A DNA stretch of 24,834 nucleotides from IMG/VR virus record IMGVR_UViG_3300046740_000326, positions 1-24,834 of that record, one strand, 5' to 3'. Shown here one piece after another: positions 4,831 through 24,543 of the stretch. Each line of letters begins with the position of its first letter. Positions within the stretch are counted from its first letter, which is position 1. The DNA is from a virus. A program made the translations under genes and the position numbers. Under the pieces are notes generated by a model, which saw only the letters and a program-made list of their open reading frames with translations, searched no databases and was not told the origin of the DNA.

Positions 4831-7305
4831 ATGGCTGAACCCGCGCAAATTGGCTATTTCGTACAGGATGATCCCGCCGCGGTTAATCCGACGCAGGTCG
4901 CTGCGTTTCTCGACCAGCCTGATCGTGATATTTCATATCCCGGCGGTCATCCGCGTATCACGGTGCGCCCCCCAGCTCGGCCCGCAAAGCCATCAGAGAA
5001 ACCGCCCGCACGATCAACGACGCCGGCGCCTGGCGGCGGCGGGGTGCGCTCAGTTGAGGACTTACCGGAGTATGTCGATCCGAGCGTTCCCCCAGCGGCG
5101 GCAGCAGCACCAGGGCAAAAGGCTCCATCGGTCGAGGACTTGCCCGACTACGTCGACACCAGCGTGCCGATGCAGCCTGAGCGCGAGGTTGGCTTTGGGC
5201 AGGCGGCGGCTGCTGGCGCGCGCGCTGGTGTAGTCCCTGGCTTCGAGCCGGCGGTTCAGGGCCTCAAGGCGGCCGGACAGGCGCCAGGTGGTGGTCTCAT
5301 TGACCAGATCGCCGGAGGCATTGCTCGCGGCGCTGACATCACAAATCCGGTACGGCCAATTGCGGACCTGCTCGGGCTTCCACAGGACCATGAGATCGTC
5401 CAAGGCATCGCGCGGCTCGTCATGGACAAGATCCAGGGCACCTCGCAAGCGACGGGCGCCTATACCCAGGGACGCGATACGGCACAGGAGACGCAGGATC
5501 TCGCGGCCAAGCAGCATCCATGGGCATATTATCCTTCCATGGTTGCCGGCAGTCTGGCATTGCCGGTGCCGGCCCTGAAGGGCGGCGCGGCGGCCGTAGA
5601 CGCGTTGCGCGCGGCGCATGCCGTAGAGGCTGCCAGGGCGGCGGGGGCAGCTCCTGGCGCCGTTCACTTCCTAGCGGAGCAGGCGGCGCAGGCGGCGAGC
5701 AAGGCTAGAGCGGTACAGATTGGCCAAACAGCCGCGACCGGTGCGACCTTGGGCGGCGTCCAGGGTGTCGGCGAAGGCGTGAGCCGCGGCGAAAGCCTGC
5801 CGGAGATCGCCGCCGGCGGCGCAAAAGGTGCCATTGTCGGCGGCGTTGTCGGCGGCGGCGTTGGTGCGGTCCTGCCACGGGTAGCGCCGCGGGCGCCTGC
5901 GGTTCTGTCGGAAGGCCAACGGGCAGCGCAGACTGCGGCAGACCTCAAAGGTTCGATCCCGCGCGGGCTCGCCTCTGACAAAGGATGGCTCCAGACATTC
6001 ACCGCCGGCATGAAATCGTTCCCGTTATTTGGGTCTCGCATCTCCCACCAGGTTGGGGATGTCCAGGAGCGGGCCGGCAATCGTCTGCACGAAATTGCAA
6101 CGGACCTGACGGGCGGCTCGACCAACCGGGCCGCGGCCGGCGAGGCTGTCCGAAAAGGAGCCGATACTGCCAGCGAGAACGTCACGAAGATAATTCGGCA
6201 GTCCTACAAAAACGTGTTCAATAAGGTCGACCAGACTACACAGTTTCCGATGCCGCGCACGCAGGCGGCGCTGCGCCAGATCAAGGCCGAGCGCGTGGAG
6301 AAGGGCTGGGAAGATCCGGGACTTGGACTGAAGCAGTGGGAAAACGTTTCGGAGGGAGCAACGGTCAAGGGCGCTCAGGGCGCCCGCAGCGAGGCGAGCT
6401 CGAAAGGCGGCGGCATAAATCCGCATCCGGGATTCGATGCGGGGCATTATAATCTTCTCACTAAGGCGATGACGGATGACTTGCGTGCGAATGTCTACGC
6501 TGCCGCGCATGGCGATGCCGCGGCAAAGCAAGCGGCCTTAGACGCTTTTGATCGAGCGGACCGGCTATTCGGCCCGTTCTCTGAATTTAACAGGTTCTTG
6601 CGCGACATCGCCGAGGACAACGGCGAGAGCGCAATTGCGCGGCTGATGAGCAAAGCGCAGGAAAAAACCGGAGACCTGACGCTTCTCGCACAATTGCGCG
6701 CGACGATGCCACCGGAGGCATTCAATCAAATCGGCGGTCAGGTGCTGCATGAACTCGGCAACCAGCAAGGACAGTTCAGTCTCGCCAAATTTGTCACCGA
6801 ATACGATAAACTGTCGCCGAAGGCGCGTGACCTATTGTTCTCACCGCAGCATCGCCAGGACATCGACAACATCTTCCAGATGGGATCGCACATCAAAGGT
6901 GCGCTCAAGACGGCAAACACATCGCACACGGCGGCACCGCTGATCCTGCTGGACCTCGCACGCGATGCGGTAATGACAGGCGCGGGAGTTGCCGTGGGCG
7001 CAATTTCGGGGGCCGGGGTTGCGGCTAGTGCGGCGGCCGCCGCGCCTGGTGTCGTCTTCGCGCACTGGGTATCCGGTCCGGCGACGGCGCGCGCGGTCAG
7101 CAATTGGACGACCGCCTATCGTGCCGCAACGCTAGGTGTGCCGACGCCAGCCCGAATAGCTGCCTTCAAAATCGCGACCCGCAATCTCGCGCACAATCTC
7201 AATATCCCGGTCGAAGATGTCACGCGGACGATCCAACAGCATCTGCCCGCCGCGGCGCAGCCAAGCCAAGACAACGAACGCCCAAAAGTACCAGGGCCAC
7301 GGTAG
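4831..7305 (+). CDS. large internal virion / ejection protein (gp16-like position)
   Basis: 824 aa, Ala/Gly-rich. The disordered N-terminus contains a duplicated motif SVEDLP-x-YVD-x-SVP (residues ~71-86 and ~98-114). Two glycine-zipper hydrophobic stretches follow, around residues 330-350 (GAIVGGVVGGGVGAVL) and 705-750 (AVMTGAGVAVGAISGAGVA), which could insert into a membrane. The middle (~400-690) is helical and charged. Third and largest of the presumed ejection proteins, it fits the role of the membrane-crossing component of the ejectosome. No lytic transglycosylase motif (E-S/T-x-x-N) was recognised. Confidence 0.6.
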   Translation: MAEPAQIGYFVQDDPAAVNPTQVAAFLDQPDRDISYPGGHPRITVRPPARPAKPSEKPPARSTTPAPGGGGVRSVEDLPEYVDPSVPPAAAAAPGQKAPSVEDLPDYVDTSVPMQPEREVGFGQAAAAGARAGVVPGFEPAVQGLKAAGQAPGGGLIDQIAGGIARGADITNPVRPIADLLGLPQDHEIVQGIARLVMDKIQGTSQATGAYTQGRDTAQETQDLAAKQHPWAYYPSMVAGSLALPVPALKGGAAAVDALRAAHAVEAARAAGAAPGAVHFLAEQAAQAASKARAVQIGQTAATGATLGGVQGVGEGVSRGESLPEIAAGGAKGAIVGGVVGGGVGAVLPRVAPRAPAVLSEGQRAAQTAADLKGSIPRGLASDKGWLQTFTAGMKSFPLFGSRISHQVGDVQERAGNRLHEIATDLTGGSTNRAAAGEAVRKGADTASENVTKIIRQSYKNVFNKVDQTTQFPMPRTQAALRQIKAERVEKGWEDPGLGLKQWENVSEGATVKGAQGARSEASSKGGGINPHPGFDAGHYNLLTKAMTDDLRANVYAAAHGDAAAKQAALDAFDRADRLFGPFSEFNRFLRDIAEDNGESAIARLMSKAQEKTGDLTLLAQLRATMPPEAFNQIGGQVLHELGNQQGQFSLAKFVTEYDKLSPKARDLLFSPQHRQDIDNIFQMGSHIKGALKTANTSHTAAPLILLDLARDAVMTGAGVAVGAISGAGVAASAAAAAPGVVFAHWVSGPATARAVSNWTTAYRAATLGVPTPARIAAFKIATRNLAHNLNIPVEDVTRTIQQHLPAAAQPSQDNERPKVPGPR

Positions 7306-14079: not shown

Positions 14080-15075
14080 TCAGTCCTTTACGCCATGGTT
14101 TTTGTTGGACACACCAAAGTTACGTTCCGCGAACGTTTCCAGGTGCAGAACGGCCGCCAAGGCGTTCTCCCGCTGGACCGAGAACCGGCAATATTTGGCC
14201 ACCATCTCGATCGACATGCCGACCATGTCGGCGATCTGGGACTCGGTCGCTCCTGCCCTGCGGAGCCTCACACATGCGGTCCCGCGCAGTCCGTGGATCA
14301 CGAGGCCCTTGTCCTTGAGGGGCGCCCAGGCGGGGTCTAGGACGAGGTTATCAATGCGCAGCGGGGCGAGCTCGGCAATGTTGTCCCGCGCGTAGGTCCA
14401 GGCATTCGAGAGTGACTTCCGGCTCCAGGGGCGCCCGTCCTGTTTCACGAGAAACGGGCCCGGCCGGCGCTCCCAGGTCGCCATCCGCGCCGCGAGCTCG
14501 GCGGTGATCGGCACCCAAATGCGTTTCTTGGTTTTCTGCTGGGTGACGTTGACGCCCTGGACGCCCTTGTAGATCTCGATATCGGTCGGGCTGATGCGGA
14601 CCAGATCTGACCCGCGCTGGCCCGTATTGGCCGCCAAGGTGATGGCGCGGGCCAGGTCGGGCGGCGCGAACCGCTCGCCCAGCGCCACCTGGTCGTCAGT
14701 CCACGGGACATGGCCGCCGTCCGAGTGGCCGATCTCGACACCCGTGGTGATGGACCTCGGCAGCAGATCGCGCACCACCGCCCATTTTTCCAGTTGCTTG
14801 AGGGCGCCCATGGCAGACCGCTGCTTGCCCGGCAGCCCGTCCATCCCGTCCATGTAGGCCTGGACGAGCGACGGGCGCATCTCCTGCAGGGAAATGGCAC
14901 CGAGGCAGTCCGGGCGCATGGCGCGCACGAGCTCGCGCCCCCACGACTCCTTGGTGGACAGGGAATAGCCGCGCGACCACTTCGGGTTGGCCGGCGACAT
15001 GAACAGCCGGACCAGCGCCGCGAAGCAGTCCTCAGTGACCCTGCCGGCCTTCGGTCGCTGCCCTTCGGGAGCCAT
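14080..15075 (-). CDS. int: tyrosine-type site-specific recombinase (integrase)
   Basis: 331 aa from the ATG at 15075, chosen because GAGG sits 7 bases upstream; longer frames overlap the excisionase further. A SAM-like core-binding domain (~1-120) is followed by the catalytic domain: Arg in TGQRGSDLVRI (~153), Lys in QQKTKKRIWVP (~178), HGLRG (~260-264) and the nucleophile Tyr in VAKYCRF (~296). Where most family members have GH before the Tyr, this one reads VGMS, so the second His/Trp position is Met. It would integrate and, with Xis, excise the phage. Overlaps xis by 44 bases. Confidence 0.9.
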   Translation of the reverse strand: MAPEGQRPKAGRVTEDCFAALVRLFMSPANPKWSRGYSLSTKESWGRELVRAMRPDCLGAISLQEMRPSLVQAYMDGMDGLPGKQRSAMGALKQLEKWAVVRDLLPRSITTGVEIGHSDGGHVPWTDDQVALGERFAPPDLARAITLAANTGQRGSDLVRISPTDIEIYKGVQGVNVTQQKTKKRIWVPITAELAARMATWERRPGPFLVKQDGRPWSRKSLSNAWTYARDNIAELAPLRIDNLVLDPAWAPLKDKGLVIHGLRGTACVRLRRAGATESQIADMVGMSIEMVAKYCRFSVQRENALAAVLHLETFAERNFGVSNKNHGVKD

Positions 15076-15292
15076 TTCTGATCCTCTCGACCAAGCTGTC
15101 CGGGCTGCTGTCCGCGCTCCCGACACTAAGCCGTTCGTCTACCTCTGACCATTTCCACATGAGTTTTCCACCGCGCTTGCGGGGAGGGGGTAGGATCCCC
15201 TGGGCAACCCAGGTGTCGATCGTCGTATCTCCGGCGCAGATGCACTTCGCCAGCGTGGCTTTGTCGACCCAGGGCGGGGGCCAGTCGCTCAT
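15032..15292 (-). CDS. excisionase / small winged-helix DNA-binding protein
   Basis: 86 aa. Residues ~8-55 (VDKATLAKCICAGDTTIDTWV, GILPPPRKRGGKLMWKWSEVDERL) match the MerR-like/AlpA winged-helix of phage excisionases, with a helix-turn-helix followed by the 'LP.P...GG...W.WS.V' wing. It lies immediately upstream of int and overlaps it, the classic xis-int arrangement, so it probably steers integrase toward excision. Its ATG overlaps the stop of the previous gene. Confidence 0.78.
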   Translation of the reverse strand: MSDWPPPWVDKATLAKCICAGDTTIDTWVAQGILPPPRKRGGKLMWKWSEVDERLSVGSADSSPDSLVERIRNGSRRAATEGRQGH

Positions 15293-16571: not shown

Positions 16572-17336
16572 TTAGGCCTTGAGCGCGCGCCGACGCCGCT
16601 GGAACGCCCAGAGGCCCGCACACGCCGCGAACAGCCCAGGTAACCCGGCACCAGCAACCGGGCCGGGTACGGCCGCCGCTGATTGCGCGAAGAAGACAAA
16701 ACTGTCCGCTCCGTCGTTGGACGACATGCAGGTCCCACTCCCGAAGGTCTGGCCTTCAGCAGTAGTACCGCAGCCAAGGATGGCGTTGAGCCCGACCGTG
16801 AAGTTAGCCGAACCAGCCAATCCCAGGATGGTGTTGAACTCGGCCCTCTGTTGAGCGTCGAGCTCGAAGTCGAAAACGGCGTTGCCGTTTCCCTGTTGGA
16901 TGGCGAGAATGGCCGCGCTGAAGTCGATCGAAGACGCCAGCGCGAACGAGCCCACCGCATTGCCCGCGGTGTCCCAGATGGTGAGCCGCATGGCGTCGAG
17001 CGTGATGCCGGAGTTGCCGGTCTGGTTCGAGTTGAACCCGATGCCGACGTTAGCTCCCGAGTTCCAGCCCAACGCTCCGATGGTGGGAGTACCGCCCTTG
17101 TCAGCCCCGGCGATGGCCTCGTCCTGCAAGGCGTTGCCGAACAGGTGGGCGCCGAACTCGATGCCGTTGTTCTGCAAAGTCAAGGCCCGGTGGACGTTAC
17201 CGAACCCTGACGCACCAACGTCGACAAACGCGCCGAGGATGTCGCCTGCGCCGAAAAGGACGATGTCGGCTTGGGCAGGTGCGGTGAAGACAAGCGCCGT
17301 CGCGCTCGCCAGGGCCGCCAGTGTGAGACGTTTCAT
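16572..17336 (-). CDS. PEP-CTERM-type exported surface protein (moron)
   Basis: 254 aa. A Sec signal peptide (~1-23, ending APAQA-DIV) leads to a Gly/Asn-rich beta domain with repeated hydrophobic strands and two Cys (LGCGTTAEG, GTCMSS). The C-terminus has the three-part sorting tail: VPGPVAGAGLPG, a hydrophobic helix and a basic end QRRRRALKA. In PEP-CTERM proteins that tail is recognised by host exosortase and the protein goes to the surface or extracellular matrix. AAGGA lies 8 bases upstream. Only 30 bases separate it from the preceding gene, so it may share the left-operon transcript. Function unproven; its place in a phage is odd. Confidence 0.78.
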   Translation of the reverse strand: MKRLTLAALASATALVFTAPAQADIVLFGAGDILGAFVDVGASGFGNVHRALTLQNNGIEFGAHLFGNALQDEAIAGADKGGTPTIGALGWNSGANVGIGFNSNQTGNSGITLDAMRLTIWDTAGNAVGSFALASSIDFSAAILAIQQGNGNAVFDFELDAQQRAEFNTILGLAGSANFTVGLNAILGCGTTAEGQTFGSGTCMSSNDGADSFVFFAQSAAAVPGPVAGAGLPGLFAACAGLWAFQRRRRALKA

Positions 17337-17366: not shown

Positions 17367-17576
17367 TCATTCCCCGTGCCGTGCTATTTCATGCCGCCCC
17401 CCTTTCGTTTCCCGCTCCCGCCGGTCGATCCAGGTCGCCAGCGTGTCGCGCGTCGTGTGCGCGGGTTCGTAACTTGCGGCCCAGCCGCCGCGGCGTGTGG
17501 CCTCCATCCATTTGGCGTGCTCGGCGCGCAGCTCGGCTAGCGTCATCGCGCTGTATGGCTTGCAAATGACGATCAT
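17367..17576 (-). CDS. small phage protein, unknown
   Basis: 69 aa from the ATG that overlaps the YqaJ exonuclease stop (ATGA); longer open-frame starts lie inside that gene. Sequence: a short beta start (MIVICKPYSA), a helical charged middle (LAELRAEHAKWMEATRRGG) and a helix TRDTLATWIDRRERET. The position next to recombination genes suggests an accessory role but no motif supports it. Confidence 0.6.
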   Translation of the reverse strand: MIVICKPYSAMTLAELRAEHAKWMEATRRGGWAASYEPAHTTRDTLATWIDRRERETKGGRHEIARHGE

Positions 17577-18205
17577 GCGGCCTTCCAGAACGGATAGAGC
17601 CGGGTCAGGTCGTCCATCTTGCGGTCGAGCTCGCCCAAAAACTCGACCACGTCGCGTTCTAAGCTGGCGATCTGCACGTCGTCGCGCGTCACGCGCTTGA
17701 CGAACAGCCGCATGTTTTCCGGCATGCGCGGATCGAACGACACCCAGTCGCACCATTGCCGCCGCCCGGTGCAGGCCATCTGCCATTGCATTTGCAGCAC
17801 GTATTTTGCCGGCATGGGACTGCCGAGCAGCGTATCAATGTGAGTGGCCGTGTTCGGGCACTTGATCTCGACGAGGCCATCTGCGCCGACGAGCCCATCA
17901 GGACTGGCGCCGGTCATCTCGATTACCGGATGATCGATGAAGCCGCTCGGCTCGACCGTGACATCGGTGTGCCATTCATAGGCTGCGCGTGCTTGCGGCT
18001 CGGTGTCGGTGCCCCATTGCATGGCCGCGTTTGTGTAGCTATCGCCCGGCACGCCGGTCAGCCGCTCGGCGACAAGCTGCGCCATGTAGTTGGCGCGCGA
18101 GGCGCCCCAGCCGCTCTTGGTCTTCGCGAGCGCGTCGGCCAGGCGCGAGGCTGTCAACTTGCCCAGCCGCTGCGCGTGCCAAGCACTTGTCCCCTGCTCG
18201 ATCAT
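17573..18205 (-). CDS. YqaJ-type viral recombinase / lambda-exonuclease-like nuclease
   Basis: 210 aa, the usual size for the family. GTSAWHAQRLGKLTASR at the start, then the PD-(D/E)XK core: SPDG (101-104, D103) and EIKCPN (E113, K115), followed by KYVLQMQWQMACTGR, the Gln-containing helix of lambda-exonuclease relatives. It resects double-stranded ends 5'-3' and hands the 3' strand to the annealing protein encoded just upstream (ERF), together making a phage recombination pair. ATGA overlap with the ERF gene. Confidence 0.9.
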   Translation of the reverse strand: MIEQGTSAWHAQRLGKLTASRLADALAKTKSGWGASRANYMAQLVAERLTGVPGDSYTNAAMQWGTDTEPQARAAYEWHTDVTVEPSGFIDHPVIEMTGASPDGLVGADGLVEIKCPNTATHIDTLLGSPMPAKYVLQMQWQMACTGRRQWCDWVSFDPRMPENMRLFVKRVTRDDVQIASLERDVVEFLGELDRKMDDLTRLYPFWKAA

Positions 18206-18921
18206 TTCTTCATCTTTCTGCTGAGTTGCGCGAGGGCCTCGCCGTATTTTGCGGCGCGTATATCAGCGAGGCTCCCAACGCCCATGAGGGCGCAGAACCG
18301 CGCGATGTCGACGCCGGTGTTGGTGCAGATCACGTTCAGGTCGGCCAACTGCTCGGCGGTGATCGGTCCGCCCTTTCCGGTGGCGTCGTCGTCTACCGCG
18401 GCCGCTAACCCGAGGGCTGCTTTCAAGGAATACCGCTGGAGATACGAGAGTGCGGACCCTACGGCTTGCACCGCGTTTTTCGAGCCTGAGGTGTCTGGCG
18501 CAGACGAGAGAGTGTTTTCCTCGCTGTGGCCGTCGCGATGGCTGATGATGCACGTGACGCTCACACGCTTATCGTCCACGTGCGTGCGGAATCGGTACGA
18601 TAGGCCATGCGCGGAAAGCTCGTCGCCAATCGCCTCGGCGATGGCGGCGAGGTCTTCGTACCAATAGGTGGTGCGCCCGGTCCCCGCATCCATCTTGCGG
18701 TTCTTAACGATCACCGGGAAATTGCAGTCGGCGATCGCGGTTTCAAACGCACGGCGGGCTTGTCTGGCCTCCCAACGCTCAACGAGGTCCATAAGTTTGG
18801 CGGCGAGTTCGGTGTCACCGCGCGCGACGGCCATGCCGAGCATCGCTTGTGGCGTGATCGGCGAGGTGACTGCGCCGCCGGTCACTGGCGGAAGGGCCAT
18901 GATATTGGTTTCGTCGGTCAT
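18202..18921 (-). CDS. erf: ERF-family single-strand annealing protein
   Basis: 239 aa. The ERF core is seen as FETAIADCNFPVIVKNRKMD, RTTYWYEDLAAIAEAI, LSAHGLSYRFRT, VSVTCIISHRDGHSEENTL and SALSYLQRYSLKAALGLA, followed by the common 'DDDATGKGG' linker and a C-terminal helical tail. It anneals complementary single strands, and in P22 helps circularise the genome. The start is taken at the second ATG (18921), because it overlaps the stop of the 27-aa gene and has GGGAG about 10 bases upstream; the ATG at 18930 has almost no spacing. Confidence 0.9.
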   Translation of the reverse strand: MTDETNIMALPPVTGGAVTSPITPQAMLGMAVARGDTELAAKLMDLVERWEARQARRAFETAIADCNFPVIVKNRKMDAGTGRTTYWYEDLAAIAEAIGDELSAHGLSYRFRTHVDDKRVSVTCIISHRDGHSEENTLSSAPDTSGSKNAVQAVGSALSYLQRYSLKAALGLAAAVDDDATGKGGPITAEQLADLNVICTNTGVDIARFCALMGVGSLADIRAAKYGEALAQLSRKMKK

Positions 18922-19001
18922 TGCGGCCATTCTCCCGTGATCACGCGGACCATCAGCATTACGAAAACGAAAAAGAGGAACATCGCGAGCAGGATACTCA
19001 T
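18918..19001 (-). CDS. 27-aa single-pass membrane protein
   Basis: A tiny gene, almost entirely one transmembrane helix (MSILLAMFLFFVFVMLMVRV) with a short tail. Its ATG overlaps the stop of the 31-aa gene (ATGA), its TGA overlaps the ERF start, and AGGTG sits five bases upstream. The gap between HNH and ERF genes would otherwise be empty. Function unknown; possibly toxic or regulatory to the host membrane. Confidence 0.6.
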   Translation of the reverse strand: MSILLAMFLFFVFVMLMVRVITGEWPQ

Positions 19002-19668: not shown

Positions 19669-20007
19669 TCATTCTCCGGCGGAAAAAGATTTGTCAACGA
19701 CCCTGAGGCCACGCGTATATTCAGTCGAAGCATTGGCCTCGATGAAGTCGAGCAACGCGTCGGGGATCATGTCGCTTGCATCGAGCAGGTTCGCCACTTT
19801 GATCGCGATGTCCTCGGTCACGTCCCGCGACCAACCCTCAACCGGGTTGAAGGCAAACACCTTCATGACGCGCGTCAGGTTTCCGTTGATGATGTCGTCG
19901 ATCGTGGCCGCGCGGCTGCAGCTATCCTCAAGCGAGCGTTCGGCGAAGTAGCCGGCCGTCTCTTGGTGGGCGCAGAGGATCGCGTAGTGGGTCAGGTCAG
20001 AGGTCAT
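19669..20007 (-). CDS. small early protein, unknown
   Basis: 112 aa from an ATG with GAGG seven bases upstream, overlapping the methyltransferase stop. Helical and acidic (YFAERSLEDSCSRAATIDDII, VTEDIAIKVANLLDASDMIPDALLDFIE). The tail (YTRGLRVVDKSFSAGE) reappears at the end of the downstream HNH protein. The start word MTSDLTH is shared with the 72-aa gene at 20551. Function unknown. Confidence 0.65.
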   Translation of the reverse strand: MTSDLTHYAILCAHQETAGYFAERSLEDSCSRAATIDDIINGNLTRVMKVFAFNPVEGWSRDVTEDIAIKVANLLDASDMIPDALLDFIEANASTEYTRGLRVVDKSFSAGE

Positions 20008-20558
20008 GGGTTTACCTCGAAGAATGCTTGAGCGAAGCCCATCGGCGTTTCGCTGCGTTGTGCTTGGCGGGTTGGTGACGGAGAAAGCCTGTGCATCTTG
20101 CTGCCCTCGACGGCCTCGACCTTGGCCTTCATTGGCGGATTGAACCGGCCCCAAAGCAGGGTTTTTTTGGTATAAGGATCGCCATAGTCAGCGGGATCGA
20201 AGTCCATGATGGGCTCGCCCAGCCAGTGCCGAAGGCGACCGATCGGGTTCTCGATCACCCACCATTGCGGGCGGTGAACCATGATGATGCGGCAGCAGGC
20301 ATCGACCAGCGCAAGCCCCTCAAGGAGTTTCCGTTCGCCCTTGCCCTCCCACCAGCGCGCGCCCGAACTGGCAAACTCGGTGCAAGGAGGCGCGGCGAGC
20401 ACGCCGCGCACCGGATAGGGCAGTGCGCAAAACAGCCGCACATCCTCGCCATGCTGCAAGTCAACTTGCCGCACGTCATATCCGGCATCGCGATAAGGAC
20501 GCGACCAGTTGCCGGTAAAGTCGCAAAGGGAAAGCACGGTCAGCATCCCATCAGCCAT
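20004..20558 (-). CDS. DNA cytosine C5-methyltransferase-like protein
   Basis: 184 aa. Motif-I-like LSLCDFTGNWSRPYRDAGYDV near the start, the motif IV loop AAPPCTEFA with the likely catalytic C59, and WVIENP (motif VI, E103), followed by KKTLLWGRF. Late conserved motifs and a target-recognition domain are short or absent, so this is a reduced enzyme of a kind found in phages, possibly protecting phage DNA from restriction. Whether it is active is open. The ATG overlaps the previous stop. Confidence 0.72.
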   Translation of the reverse strand: MADGMLTVLSLCDFTGNWSRPYRDAGYDVRQVDLQHGEDVRLFCALPYPVRGVLAAPPCTEFASSGARWWEGKGERKLLEGLALVDACCRIIMVHRPQWWVIENPIGRLRHWLGEPIMDFDPADYGDPYTKKTLLWGRFNPPMKAKVEAVEGSKMHRLSPSPTRQAQRSETPMGFAQAFFEVNP

Positions 20559-21329: not shown

Positions 21330-21620
21330 CTATTCAGGCTGCTTGAGAATTTGCGTTATAACGTCGTCAATATCGCGCGGTAACCGGCTCATATCACCGA
21401 AGCGAATGAAGGCGTAATCGACCCTGGTCCGGTGCATGATCTTCTCGGTCATGGTCCGCGACGGAACTAATTTTTTTTGCTTGTAGTTGTTCCATTGGTT
21501 GTAATTTATGTCGCACCACGCGCAAAACGCGCGCTCGCTGCGGCCGCTCCACTCAACGAGCGCGAGAAGTCTGCGCCATAGCTGTTCGCTGCTGTAGGGG
21601 TCCGCATTTGACGTAGGCAT
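21330..21620 (-). CDS. XRE-family repressor (CI-like)
   Basis: 96 aa from the ATG at 21620. A helix-turn-helix spans ~28-66 (RAFCAWCDINYNQWNNYKQKKLVPSRTMTEKI), followed by VDYAFIRFGDMSRLP, the usual 'tgv..dWI..GD...LP' end of phage XRE regulators. There is no LexA-type peptidase domain, so RecA-driven self-cleavage is not expected. Divergent from the Cro-like gene with operator-like dyads between. No clear ribosome binding site, so it may be leaderless. Likely holds lysogeny, though its role against the Cro-like gene is inferred. Confidence 0.68.
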   Translation of the reverse strand: MPTSNADPYSSEQLWRRLLALVEWSGRSERAFCAWCDINYNQWNNYKQKKLVPSRTMTEKIMHRTRVDYAFIRFGDMSRLPRDIDDVITQILKQPE

Positions 21621-21667: not shown

Positions 21668-21699
21668 TGGACACTGGACACATACACCGACTATGTATA
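21668..21699 (+). promoter_or_regulatory. putative rightward promoter and operator (PR-like)
   Basis: TGGACA (21668-21673), 18-base spacer and TATGTA (21692-21697) form a plausible promoter; TGGACAC is tandemly repeated (21668-21681). The dyad-like TACAC-N7-GTATA overlaps the -10. Transcription would start only a few bases before the ATG at 21710, so the message may be leaderless. Confidence 0.45.
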
Positions 21700-21709
21700 C
21701 AGTGGCGGC

Positions 21710-21934
21710 ATGTCCGACGCAACCCTCCGCACCGCAACCGCTGTCATCGAGGTTCTGGGTGGCCCCTCGGTGCTGGCGAGGCGCCTGAAGCGCACGCCTC
21801 AACAGGTCTGCAATTGGAAGTCCGAGGGGACGTTTCCCGACTGGACGTACCCAATCCTGACCGCGGATCTCGAAGAAAAGGGCCACACGGCGCCGCGCAA
21901 GCTTTGGCGGCGCTTGGCAAAATTTGCGTCCTAG
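21710..21934 (+). CDS. Cro/YdaS-like helix-turn-helix regulator
   Basis: 74 aa. HTH at ~17-45 (GGPSVLARRLKRTPQQVCNWKSEG), the typical Cro/YdaS 'lGG...lA..l......V..W...g..P' pattern, then LEEKGHTAPRKLWRRL. First gene of the right operon, divergent from the repressor. It probably binds the operators of the immunity region and favours lytic growth. No Shine-Dalgarno is seen before the ATG. Confidence 0.78.
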   Translation: MSDATLRTATAVIEVLGGPSVLARRLKRTPQQVCNWKSEGTFPDWTYPILTADLEEKGHTAPRKLWRRLAKFAS

Positions 21935-21959: not shown

Positions 21960-22940
21960 ATGCCGCAAGGACGAATCGTCAAACTGGAACAATTCACGCG
22001 CCGCGAATGGGCGAAGCGGCTCAACGAACAGTGGGAGCATCTGCGCGAGAGCACCGTGCATGGGTTCATTCAATTGGGCCGCGAATTGAAAAATGCCAAG
22101 GCTCAGCTTGAGCATGGGCAGTGGCAAACGCTAGTGGAAAAGGATCTGAAGTTTCATCCGCGCGTTGCGCGAACATTCATGCAGATTGCAACCTGGGCTA
22201 AGCAAAACGGAGTCAATGACTCCGTTTTGCGGCTCTTGCCGCCCGACTACAACACCATCGATAAAATCACCCGGTTAGACGCGCTGACATTTGAGCGGCT
22301 GACAACGGATGGCACGATCTGCCCGTCGTTGCAGCGCAACGAGGTTGCGAAAATTTTGCGCCAGCAGCGCGTCGGTGCTGACGAAGAGCGCGTGCTCGAT
22401 CTCGTGCCGCGCGCTGGCAAATTCCGCACCATCGTCCTCGATCCCGCATGGGAATACGACTGGCTATCAATCGCCGGCCGCGCCAAGCCGGGTTATGCGA
22501 TGCAGAGTATCGAGAACCTGCGCGAGCTTGACGTGCGGGCATGGGCCGACGAGGAGGAGGGCTGTCACCTTTATTGCTGGACGACGAACAATTTCAGTGG
22601 TGAGGCGCACAAACTGGTGGAGCATTGGGGTTTCCAGCATCGCACGATCCTGACGTGGATCAAGCCGCCGCCATTTGGGCTCGGCTCCTACTTCCGCAAT
22701 TCGACCGAACAATGCCTATTTGCCACGCTGGGTGACACTACGACGCGCCCGGCCGCTTCGAGCATTTCCACCCACTTTGAAGCACCGCGTGGCGAGCACA
22801 GCGAGAAGCCCGAGAGATTCTACGAGATCGTGCGCGCGGCGAGTTACCCGCCGTACGGCGAAGGGAACCAGCGCGAACCGCGCGAGGACTTCACAAACCT
22901 TTTCTGTTCCGCCACCGAGCTTGAGGAGGCGGTGGAATGA
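21960..22940 (+). CDS. MT-A70-type adenine-N6 DNA methyltransferase with DUF3102-like N-terminus
   Basis: 326 aa from the ATG following GAGAGGCGAGGA; an earlier in-frame ATG at 21924 overlaps the Cro-like gene. Residues ~25-135 form a helical DUF3102-like module (GFIQLGRELKNAKAQLEHGQW, FHPRVARTFMQIATWA). The MT-A70 domain follows: IVLDPAWEY (D161-W164; DPAW in place of the usual DPPW), YCWTTNN, LTWIKPPP and HSEKPERFYEIV (~282-293). It methylates adenine-N6 using S-adenosylmethionine; the target is unknown. It is not a CcrM homologue by this layout. A perfect palindrome lies in codons ~81-91. ATGA overlap with the next gene. Confidence 0.85.
   Translation: MPQGRIVKLEQFTRREWAKRLNEQWEHLRESTVHGFIQLGRELKNAKAQLEHGQWQTLVEKDLKFHPRVARTFMQIATWAKQNGVNDSVLRLLPPDYNTIDKITRLDALTFERLTTDGTICPSLQRNEVAKILRQQRVGADEERVLDLVPRAGKFRTIVLDPAWEYDWLSIAGRAKPGYAMQSIENLRELDVRAWADEEEGCHLYCWTTNNFSGEAHKLVEHWGFQHRTILTWIKPPPFGLGSYFRNSTEQCLFATLGDTTTRPAASSISTHFEAPRGEHSEKPERFYEIVRAASYPPYGEGNQREPREDFTNLFCSATELEEAVE
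22202..22230. repeat. perfect palindrome, 13-bp arms, inside methyltransferase gene
   Basis: GCAAAACGGAGTC (22202-22214), loop AAT, GACTCCGTTTTGC (22218-22230). Both arms carry a GANTC site (GAGTC, GACTC). The transcript would form a long stable hairpin with a 3-base loop inside the coding region. No T-run follows the stem. Confidence 0.85.
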
Positions 22941-23479
22941 ACGTATTTCAGCGCGACGATCAGTGGCAGCGCGGAATGCGAGACAAAATACTTGCGCCGT
23001 CATTCTATCGTGAATACGCGGCGGATGGCCGTTATGTGTTCATTGACAAGGGCCGGCTTGCTGACGAACTGCAAAGGCGCTGGGCCACTGATACTGTGTT
23101 GCAGGGTAGGGATGGACGGACGATTTGTGTTGAGGAAAAGATTGTGCGATGGCCCAAGAAAGATCGGCCACATCCTGCTTTTGCGCTGGAAACAATAAGC
23201 TGCACCGTTCCGGGCCGCGAAAAAGACGGCTGGATGTTCTACGGAAAAGCCGACTATCTCCTTTACTGCTTTTCCGACAAGGCTGAGCGCGTGCTTAATT
23301 GCTACCTGATCGACTTTCCAAAATTGCAGGATTGGTTTTGGCCGCGTGAAGATAACTGGCCGGTCACTATTTCAGAACAGATCAACCGGACTCTTTGTCG
23401 TCTGGTTCCTATTTTGGAGGTCGAGGCTAACGTGCCGTGTTGGCAGGTACTTGCCGCGGCTGAAGAGATGCCGTTCTAG
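22937..23479 (+). CDS. PD-(D/E)XK-like nuclease, unknown target
   Basis: 180 aa. D52 in WATDTVLQGRDG and E66-x-K68 in ICVEEKIVRW fit a PD-(D/E)XK active site, followed by FALETISCTV, EKDGWMFYGKADYLLYCF and a C-terminal helix. The 'ADYLLYCF' strand is common in restriction-type folds. Its ATG overlaps the methyltransferase stop (ATGA), so the two are co-translated. It could degrade host or competing DNA, or act in replication. Fold assignment by eye. Confidence 0.6.
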   Translation: MNVFQRDDQWQRGMRDKILAPSFYREYAADGRYVFIDKGRLADELQRRWATDTVLQGRDGRTICVEEKIVRWPKKDRPHPAFALETISCTVPGREKDGWMFYGKADYLLYCFSDKAERVLNCYLIDFPKLQDWFWPREDNWPVTISEQINRTLCRLVPILEVEANVPCWQVLAAAEEMPF

Positions 23480-23495
23480 CTGGGAAGGCATGACC

Positions 23496-23777
23496 ATGGA
23501 TATGTCTGAATACGCCAGATCGCCCAAACGAGATGACGAGCGCAATGCGAGACGTTGGCGTGGTTCTCTTTTTGATAACTTGCGTTCACCGATCATGTGG
23601 AAGGACAAGTATTACGAAACATTGAAGCCACCAAATTCGGTGACGTTTCCCATTTGCTGCGGATGCGGGCACGTCGTATGGGAGTGGCCGCATTTCCAAG
23701 AGCCGGTGCCTGACGGCGCCGTTTGCGAGAAATGTTTTGAGGAGGACAAAGAGACAGAAGAGCGGGATGCGCCATGA
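23496..23777 (+). CDS. small zinc-ribbon protein
   Basis: 93 aa from the ATG at 23496, which has GGAAGG seven bases upstream; ATGs at 23490 and 23502 are alternatives. Basic N-terminus (RSPKRDDERNARRWRGSL), then CCGCGHVVWEW and CEKCFEEDKE, two CxxC pairs suggesting one bound zinc, and an acidic C-terminus. Unknown function. Its TGA overlaps the DnaA-like gene's ATG. Confidence 0.62.
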   Translation: MDMSEYARSPKRDDERNARRWRGSLFDNLRSPIMWKDKYYETLKPPNSVTFPICCGCGHVVWEWPHFQEPVPDGAVCEKCFEEDKETEERDAP

Positions 23778-24100
23778 TCTCCAGTGTTTGCAGCGTCAAG
23801 CAGATCAAACACTTGGTGTGTTTGGAGTTTGGTTTACTTGAGGTTGATCTGGAGTCGGATCGGCGACAGCGACATATCGCGATCGCGCGAATGATCGGAA
23901 TGGCACTCGCCCGGCGGTTAACGAAACTGTCGTTCACCCAGATCGGTCGCCGGTTTGGCAACCGTGACCACACGACAGTGCTCTACGCTTGTAAAAGGGT
24001 TGGTCCCCATATGGAGGCCGCGGCGCAGAGGCTGCCCGACGGAGCGACGGCCGAGGAGTGGGTCAAGACCATGCAGTCTGTGATGGGGCTCGGGCGGTGA
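23774..24100 (+). CDS. stand-alone DnaA domain IV (DNA-binding) protein
   Basis: 108 aa. Residues ~38-75 (IARMIGMALARRLTKLSFTQIG, FGNRDHTTVLYACKRV) carry the DnaA box-recognition signature 'GRDHTTVLHA', with R-to-N change in the first position (GNRDHTTV). No AAA+ ATPase domain is present (a full DnaA is ~450-500 aa), so it can bind DnaA boxes but not assemble on its own. It may act at the phage origin or compete with host DnaA. Coupled to neighbours by ATGA/GTGA. Confidence 0.82.
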   Translation: MISSVCSVKQIKHLVCLEFGLLEVDLESDRRQRHIAIARMIGMALARRLTKLSFTQIGRRFGNRDHTTVLYACKRVGPHMEAAAQRLPDGATAEEWVKTMQSVMGLGR

Positions 24101-24543
24101 AATGGTCCGAGCAGCCCGAGGCGGTCGAGACGCTGCGCAAGCTGGCGGGGCGCGGCTGGCCGGCGTCCGATATCGGGATCGAGCTCGGCTGCACCAAGAA
24201 CGCGATCATCGGCGCGGCGCGGCGCAACGGTATCCCGCTGAAGCAAGCCCGGCATGGCCCGCCAAAGCCCAGAAACGCACCAAGGACGCGCCGAAAAATG
24301 CCCGCTGTCCCACAGCCCCCCACCGCGGAATACGTCCCACAGCGCGCCCCTGAGCCGCCGTGGCCATGCTCGCTGTTCGAGCTGACAGACTTTTCGTGTC
24401 GGTGGCCGATCGGCGACGTCGGCACGCCTGAATTTTATTTCTGCGGCGCACACGAGGCGGATGTCTACCGCGGCCGCCCATACTGTCGTGAGCACGCACG
24501 CCTTGCCTTTCACGGGTTCGGCCGGCGCGAGGTGAACGCATGA
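24097..24543 (+). CDS. gcrA: GcrA-family cell-cycle regulator
   Basis: 148 aa from a GTG overlapping the previous stop (GTGA). N-terminal HTH (~8-48: EAVETLRKLAGRGWPASDI, IELGCTKNAIIGAARRNGIPL) as in GcrA, a Pro-rich linker and a C-terminal domain (~88-140) with CSLFELTDFSCRWPIGD, EFYFCGA and GRPYCREHARLAF, the Cys/His plan of GcrA. In Caulobacter GcrA binds sigma70-RNA polymerase and promoters with methylated GANTC. A phage copy could redirect host or phage transcription. An upstream ATG in frame lies inside the DnaA-like gene and is rejected. Confidence 0.85.
   Translation: MKWSEQPEAVETLRKLAGRGWPASDIGIELGCTKNAIIGAARRNGIPLKQARHGPPKPRNAPRTRRKMPAVPQPPTAEYVPQRAPEPPWPCSLFELTDFSCRWPIGDVGTPEFYFCGAHEADVYRGRPYCREHARLAFHGFGRREVNA

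Follow-up and report, generated by a model that had tools for sequence, protein, structure and literature searches.

Cell-cycle regulators of alphaproteobacteria have been reported repeatedly in their phages. The phiCbK-like phages encode GcrA, which was suggested to change the replicative state of the host (PMC3556154), and the same role was proposed for the GcrA of Agrobacterium phage Atu_ph08 (PMC6630229). In phiLM21-like prophages, GcrA and DnaA are listed among the cargo (PMC12429752). Across alphaproteobacterial phage genomes, the sites for GcrA, DnaA and SciP show no positional bias, unlike CtrA sites (PMC9437464). Phage GcrA became known in 2012, and in the papers we found its role has remained a proposal. 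Here, we analyse the 24.8-kb IMG/VR viral contig IMGVR_UViG_3300046740_000326 (the window), in which gcrA directly follows a gene for a stand-alone DnaA domain IV (dnaA_C) in a rightward operon that also encodes an adenine methyltransferase of the MT-A70 family.

The operon lies downstream of a repressor/cro pair and reaches the end of the contig. Its order is MT-A70, a nuclease-like gene, a zinc-ribbon-like gene, dnaA_C, gcrA and a DUF1376 gene. A preliminary description had placed a coupled phage operon with the first five of these genes at 21960-24543; this interval begins exactly with the start codon of MT-A70 and ends with the stop codon of gcrA, and all the claimed genes are present. Judging from its junctions, the operon is translationally coupled: four of the five (MT-A70/nuclease, zinc/DnaA_C, DnaA_C/GcrA and GcrA/DUF1376, within 22937-24543) are four-base stop/start overlaps. 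The window is best explained as carrying the early-region operon of a temperate phage of an alphaproteobacterium. We give a probability of about 0.5 to the reading that DnaA_C, GcrA and the DUF1376 protein form an early replication and transcription module, with MT-A70 and its nuclease-like neighbour as a separate, exchangeable cassette. GcrA and stand-alone DnaA domains are already known from phages; the dnaA_C-gcrA pairing and the MT-A70 cassette appear to be new in the sources searched, as no description of either pair was found in the open-licence literature covered.

The dnaA_C-gcrA pair

In all six of the closest gcrA-bearing phages (L002-L007; loci are given by L numbers), whose GcrA is 62-87% identical to that of the window, dnaA_C lies 0-1.7 kb upstream of gcrA. 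The order in a seventh relative, L188, is dnaA_C, MT-A70, gcrA. The gene directly after the pair is DUF1376 in most of the window's lineage, with a terminase next in L002, L004 and L007. A second view comes from 63 phage loci gathered by the DnaA domain alone, with the Pfam GcrA model run on the first 44 contigs. Nine of these contigs encode a GcrA above the cut-off, and in four of them (L011, L014, L030 and L031) gcrA is located on the same strand at most 0.8 kb downstream of dnaA_C. Random placement predicts 0.18 such cases (P ~1e-5, in a calculation that treats contigs as independent and ignores the clustering of early genes).

The chromosomal neighbourhood is different. Within 1.5 kb of cellular gcrA, dnaA_C, MT-A70 and DUF1376 were found in none of the 30 best loci from 385 alphaproteobacterial genomes, indicating that the pairing was not copied from the chromosome. 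The best GcrA match in these genomes has 46% identity, and a pattern scan of bacterial genomes for prophage relatives via GcrA returned none. By gene order, dnaA_C-gcrA is a recurrent, phage-specific pair, seen in five lineages, and is not universal.

Some loci carry related arrangements. The GcrA-like genes of L009 and L010 were considered as further pairs and dropped, as they fall below the Pfam cut-off and have no sigma-binding half. The protein encoded directly after dnaA_C in these loci (L009, L010; 6306-6701) consists of the N-terminal helix-turn-helix (HTH) only, and the slot downstream holds an N6_N4 methylase in one locus and an MT-A70 gene in the other. L196 (3161-5246) encodes GcrA, then an N6_N4_Mtase (PF01555), then DnaA_C, which is a version of the combination with a CcrM-family methylase.

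The window GcrA matches PF07750 over residues 1-142 of 148 (86.4 bits, cut-off 26.9) and misses the NCBIfam equivalog cut-off for host GcrA (62.6 bits vs 280). Structures of cellular GcrA complexes were reportedly solved by Wu et al. in 2018. We aligned the window protein to 7YE1 and 5YIX, the latter at 8e-8. The two halves of the protein have diverged to different degrees. In the sigma-interacting half, the window protein has retained 12 of the 14 positions that show almost no variation in cellular GcrA, and the C-terminal motif for sigma70 interaction (C-x-W-P-x-G-D, F-C-G, Y-C-x-x-H) is present. The DNA-binding half keeps 10 of 17 such positions. The changes are mainly in the recognition helix, where NAVIGKVHRLGL of cellular GcrA is replaced by NAIIGAARRNGI (K40A, H42R, L44N). 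A structure model of the protein has a mean predicted local distance difference test (pLDDT) score of 61, too poor for a fold search.

It had been proposed that this GcrA steers sigma70 promoters at GANTC sites. The sigma-interacting half is indeed retained. Because the recognition helix has diverged while the sigma-binding half is kept, steering of GANTC promoters cannot be assumed, and the targeting is further weakened by the site distribution: GANTC is depleted in the window (19 sites, compared to 51 or 103 expected from maximal-order or first-order models) and absent near the likely promoter of the operon. A clustering of GANTC inside the operon (6/19, p=0.025) was weak and was not used. 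Many related phage loci are depleted as well, which is consistent with a host that has CcrM. In INPHARED, the phage DNA most similar to the window comes from the exonuclease gene of Sinorhizobium phage phiLM21, and DnaA_C is matched best by Bradyrhizobium phage ppBeUSDA76-2; the host is probably a Hyphomicrobiales bacterium.

The DnaA-like protein had been described as a DNA-binding domain without ATPase, and this is what we find. Bac_DnaA_C (PF08299, 86.4 bits, cut-off 31.5) covers residues 9-76 of 108; domain IV is the sole match in Pfam and NCBIfam, with no AAA+ ATPase domain III. The alignment to domain IV of E. coli DnaA (1J1V, E 4e-13) places R399, D433, H434, T435 and T436 (E. coli numbering, with residues counted back from the DHTT motif) among the retained positions. 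In E. coli, R399 reads the minor groove, and the R399A and T435M mutations impair box binding (PMC5742627). The Leu-Pro pair connected with Hda binding in E. coli DnaA (PMC5742627) is Phe-Thr in the window protein. On this alignment, the window DnaA_C keeps most of the box-contact residues.

The ratio of nonsynonymous to synonymous divergence (dN/dS) is below 1 in all five genes that were tested against homologues: about 0.12-0.18 for MT-A70, 0.11 for the nuclease-like gene, 0.23 for the zinc-ribbon-like gene and 0.1-0.3 for dnaA_C. The weakest constraint is on gcrA (0.4-0.5). Between the window and L002, dS is 0.18 for gcrA and 1.1 for dnaA_C, indicating that gcrA was exchanged separately and more recently than its neighbour.

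MT-A70 and its neighbour gene

The methylase had been assigned to MT-A70 and not to CcrM. MT-A70 is the only methylase family matched (PF05063, 53.5 bits, cut-off 23.9), with no PF01555, and the assignment holds. The protein carries an N-terminal DUF3102 (PF11300, 31.6 bits). In PADLOC, it is matched best by a Type II MTase (E 1e-32). The active-site motif is DPAW in the window, L198, L201 and L203, and DPPW in L206, L208 and L210.

The preliminary description set MT-A70, DnaA_C and GcrA beside the host cell-cycle circuit of DnaA, GcrA and CcrM. Only the dnaA_C-gcrA part of this linkage is conserved (L002-L007, L188, L011, L014, L030, L031). We reject the three genes as a unit, as MT-A70 is found in L005 and L188 and not in L002, L003, L004, L006 and L007, and the L005 and L188 enzymes are only distantly related to that of the window (26-28% identity). 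Adenine methylases are not significantly enriched near gcrA either: they are present in 7/20 loci, compared to 7/32 near dnaA_C without gcrA (p=0.24; counted by hand within 3 kb, excluding L031 and including the weak case L033). With a nuclease-like partner of its own, MT-A70 is not supported as the third member of such a circuit.

That partner directly follows MT-A70 in all six window-type lineages (L198, L200, L203, L206, L208 and L209). Furthermore, six of eight lineages (L198, L200, L204, L206, L207 and L208) have a GcrA-family gene close upstream of MT-A70 and the neighbour, or of the neighbour by itself, compared to about 8 of 63 dnaA_C loci (p=0.0005; the 8 were counted by hand). GcrA is above the Pfam cut-off in all six, with L201 standing for L200 and the L206 gene being a fragment at the contig start. 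Since L204 and L207 are related, the independent cases are nearer 5/7 than 6/8. In these six lineages the loci contain no dnaA_C. By gene order, two associations with gcrA in common therefore meet in the window: dnaA_C-gcrA and gcrA-[MT-A70 + neighbour].

The neighbour protein has no match in Pfam, PHROG, NCBIfam or PADLOC. D52, E66 and K68 are invariant in 10 homologues. The top hits of its AlphaFold model (pLDDT 85, predicted template modelling score 0.83) in a Foldseek search of the PDB are two restriction endonucleases, Eco15I and NhoI, with weak scores (E 2.5e-3 to 3e-2, TM 0.26-0.34; TM 0.26-0.38 for the PD-(D/E)XK restriction enzymes overall). Among viral models the first fold match is a phage protein labelled 'NO VEIN C-terminal domain' (E 8e-7). 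The protein is quite probably PD-(D/E)XK-like.

The content of the slot between cro and gcrA varies in the window's lineage. It is empty in L003, contains a radical-SAM-like protein and others in L004, and an HTH gene and another in L002. In L005 (4110-5658), the same slot before dnaA_C-gcrA is occupied by a parallel pair, a different MT-A70 with a PDDEXK_11 nuclease (PF20472, 111 bits). MT-A70 with the nuclease-like gene is best read as an exchangeable restriction-modification-like cassette and not as a CcrM substitute.

The MT-A70 gene also contains a perfect inverted repeat. Perfect dyads of different sequence are present at the matching place in L198 (12 bp, 5236-5260), L200 (14 bp, 5216-5244) and L203 (10 bp, 5176-5195), and a 12-bp dyad also occurs in the MT-A70 gene of L228 (4308-4331); overall the arms are 10-14 bp and the centres 0-1 nt. 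In synonymous shuffles of four MT-A70 genes, dyads reached at most 10 bp in the window gene and 9 bp in the other three, so that L203 exceeds its own shuffles only narrowly. Of 11 distinct dyads of at least 11 bp in 1.5 Mb of phage loci, three are in MT-A70 genes (L198, L200 and L228). The dyad was noticed after looking, and these comparisons are descriptive with no planned test. As the position is kept while the sequence has changed, the comparison points to selection on the symmetry of the nucleic acid, DNA or RNA. No comparable dyad was found in alphaproteobacterial DUF3102 genes, in three genomes only. In a separate observation, DUF3102 genes of an alphaproteobacterial genome (L260, 991-1761; L262, 1312-2028) are located directly downstream of genes that look by eye like ParA, and the L206 MT-A70 of the same type has a weak ParB_N match in place of DUF3102; this suggests that DUF3102 may be a ParB-like DNA-binding domain.

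Layout of the window

The features of the window are collected in Table 1. A rightward gene block at its left end is taken for late genes, with no detailed annotation. By eye, the translations of 17573-18930 (-) presumably represent YqaJ-type exonuclease and Erf-type recombination genes. The repressor-like protein is 93% identical to its L005 counterpart. The candidate promoter is a consensus match at chance level (1 found, 1.4 expected). The Cro/YdaS-like protein matches Pfam YdaS_toxin (22 bits) and a carph-isopro domain (35 bits), both below cut-off. The zinc-ribbon-like protein has a 66% identical homologue in L004, there too adjoining dnaA_C. The DUF1376 protein matches a PHROG primosomal protein (E 6e-20).

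Table 1 Features of the window with position, strand and basis of assignment.
Feature	Position	Strand	Basis
Tyrosine integrase	14080-15126	-	Family search
Repressor-like HTH protein, divergent from operon	21330-21620	-	PHROG transcriptional regulator phrog_147, E 6e-4
Candidate operon promoter TGGACA-17-TACAGT	21675-21703	+	Consensus match only
Cro/YdaS-like HTH protein, opens rightward operon	21710-21934	+	Below-cut-off matches
MT-A70 adenine methyltransferase, N-terminal DUF3102	21960-22940	+	PF05063, PF11300
Perfect 14-bp inverted repeat, 1-nt centre, inside MT-A70 gene	22202-22230		Sequence search
Probable PD-(D/E)XK-like protein	22937-23479	+	Predicted fold and invariant residues
Small Cys-rich (zinc-ribbon-like) protein	23496-23777	+	Without Pfam family
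Stand-alone DnaA domain IV, 108 aa	23774-24100	+	PF08299
GcrA-family protein, N-terminal HTH and C-terminal sigma70-interacting domain	24097-24543	+	PF07750
DUF1376/primosomal (replisome-organizer-type) protein, cut by contig end	24540-24833	+	PF07120, 73.7 bits

Two further genes are located on the opposite strand. The region 20004-20558 (-) encodes a second DNA methyltransferase-like protein (PHROG phrog_757, E 4e-44). The gene at 16572-17336 (-) encodes a secreted-looking protein with no Pfam match, the C-terminus of which (VPGPVAGAGLPGLFAACAGLWAFQRRRR) resembles a PEP-CTERM-type sorting signal, an unexpected feature in a phage.

Proposed function and relation to known systems

From the observed gene content, coupling, conservation of the two pairs and residues kept or lost, we infer the following binding, enzymatic and physiological steps. 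The stand-alone domain IV would bind DnaA-box-like DNA and, adjoining the DUF1376 primosomal protein, could mark the phage origin or compete with host DnaA. The GcrA-family protein would bind host sigma70 and redirect RNA polymerase to promoters picked by its own diverged helix, most likely those of phage or replication genes. The MT-A70 and PD-(D/E)XK-like cassette would sit between cro and dnaA_C by insertion, and may serve in superinfection exclusion or in the attack on unmethylated DNA, with self-protection.

Several observations weigh against this proposal. In a GcrA-led sample from another branch (L214-L228), dnaA_C is beside gcrA in 0/15 loci, showing that phage gcrA does not generally come with dnaA_C. 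The R399 equivalent is K in L002-L005, and DHTT is DHWT (T435 to W) in L006 and L007, indicating that box recognition has drifted and is not kept family-wide. There is no consensus DnaA box within one mismatch of TTATCCACA in the 24.8 kb of this partial phage genome, and the structural scores behind the nuclease assignment are weak.

The operon could instead be a collection of independent cargo, separate accessory genes that gather in an early-operon slot with no joint function. The strong variation of slot order and content among close phages, the separate exchange of gcrA and the frequency of adenine methylases near dnaA_C even without gcrA would all be expected, but the recurrence of dnaA_C-gcrA adjacency in five lineages and the constant MT-A70/nuclease pairing would not, and we regard this as a somewhat unlikely explanation. 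Takeover of the host cell cycle was the inference of the preliminary description, and has been the published proposal for the GcrA of both phiCbK (PMC3556154) and Atu_ph08 (PMC6630229). DnaA_C would then act as a decoy on host boxes to stop initiation, GcrA would activate host S-phase promoters, and the methylase would alter methylation-dependent control. A domain IV without ATPase that keeps most box residues has the form expected of a decoy, and the sigma-binding half of GcrA is kept. However, MT-A70 is unlinked to the dnaA_C-gcrA pair in most relatives, the recognition helix has diverged, and the genes are located in a replication module with DUF1376, as phage functions would be. Takeover seems unlikely to us.

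The target of the methylase is a separate matter, compatible with any of these readings. In complex with its partner PNB-2, an MT-A70 protein of the phiPA8 prophage that had been annotated as a DNA methylase acts preferentially on 16S rRNA (PMC10810198), so that DNA marking by the window enzyme cannot be assumed; MT-A70 families include RNA enzymes. The Type II DNA methyltransferase as best PADLOC match and the constant nuclease-like neighbour, which suggests DNA protection, argue in the other direction and make modification of RNA instead of DNA rather improbable. It is very improbable that the operon is a private copy of the host methylation-read-out circuit, in which its own methylase would mark phage DNA, a retargeted GcrA would activate the marked promoters, DnaA_C would tie the switch to replication, and the dyad in the MT-A70 gene would be read by the fused DUF3102.

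The proposed module and cassette form an arrangement that is real, recurrent and testable, and built from known families. A small temperate phage with gcrA beside a DnaA box-binding domain in a replication operon is a tractable system in which it can be asked whether alphaproteobacterial viruses employ the cell-cycle regulators of the host to time their own replication, or to keep the host in a replicative state. The kept sigma-binding half and the changed DNA-reading helix predict a retargeting of GcrA that is directly testable. The methylase/nuclease cassette, if active, would represent an MT-A70-based restriction-modification system carried by a phage.

The window methylase shares its predicted adenine methyltransferase chemistry with CcrM, but belongs to MT-A70 (PF05063), a different family from CcrM and the other N6_N4_Mtase enzymes (PF01555), and is fused to DUF3102. 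The adjacent and conserved order of a methylase gene followed by a PD-(D/E)XK-like gene (6/6 lineages) resembles that of Type II restriction-modification pairs, from which the window pair differs in the weak fold match of its nuclease-like protein. With domain IV of E. coli DnaA (1J1V) the window protein shares the box-reading helix with DHTT and the R399 equivalent. Compared to full DnaA, it is without domains I-III and has Phe-Thr in place of Leu-Pro. Stand-alone DnaA_C proteins are also found in phages AmM-1, RHph_N28_2 and ppBeUSDA76-2, with a primase gene as the neighbour in AmM-1 and DUF1376 in ppBeUSDA76-2. Host GcrA (Caulobacter crescentus; 7YE1, 5YIX, 5YIU) has the same two-part layout and CxWPxGD/FCG/YCxxH motif as the window protein, with K, H and L in the recognition helix where the window has A, R and N. 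The GcrA of Caulobacter phage phiCbK (gp222) is likewise a phage PF07750 protein, with tblastn identities of 31-32% for phiCbK and its relatives. The search of phage records with the dnaA_C query did not return phiCbK, the gcrA neighbourhood of which was not itself inspected. phiCbK is a large phage of 205 kb, whereas the window represents a small temperate phage.

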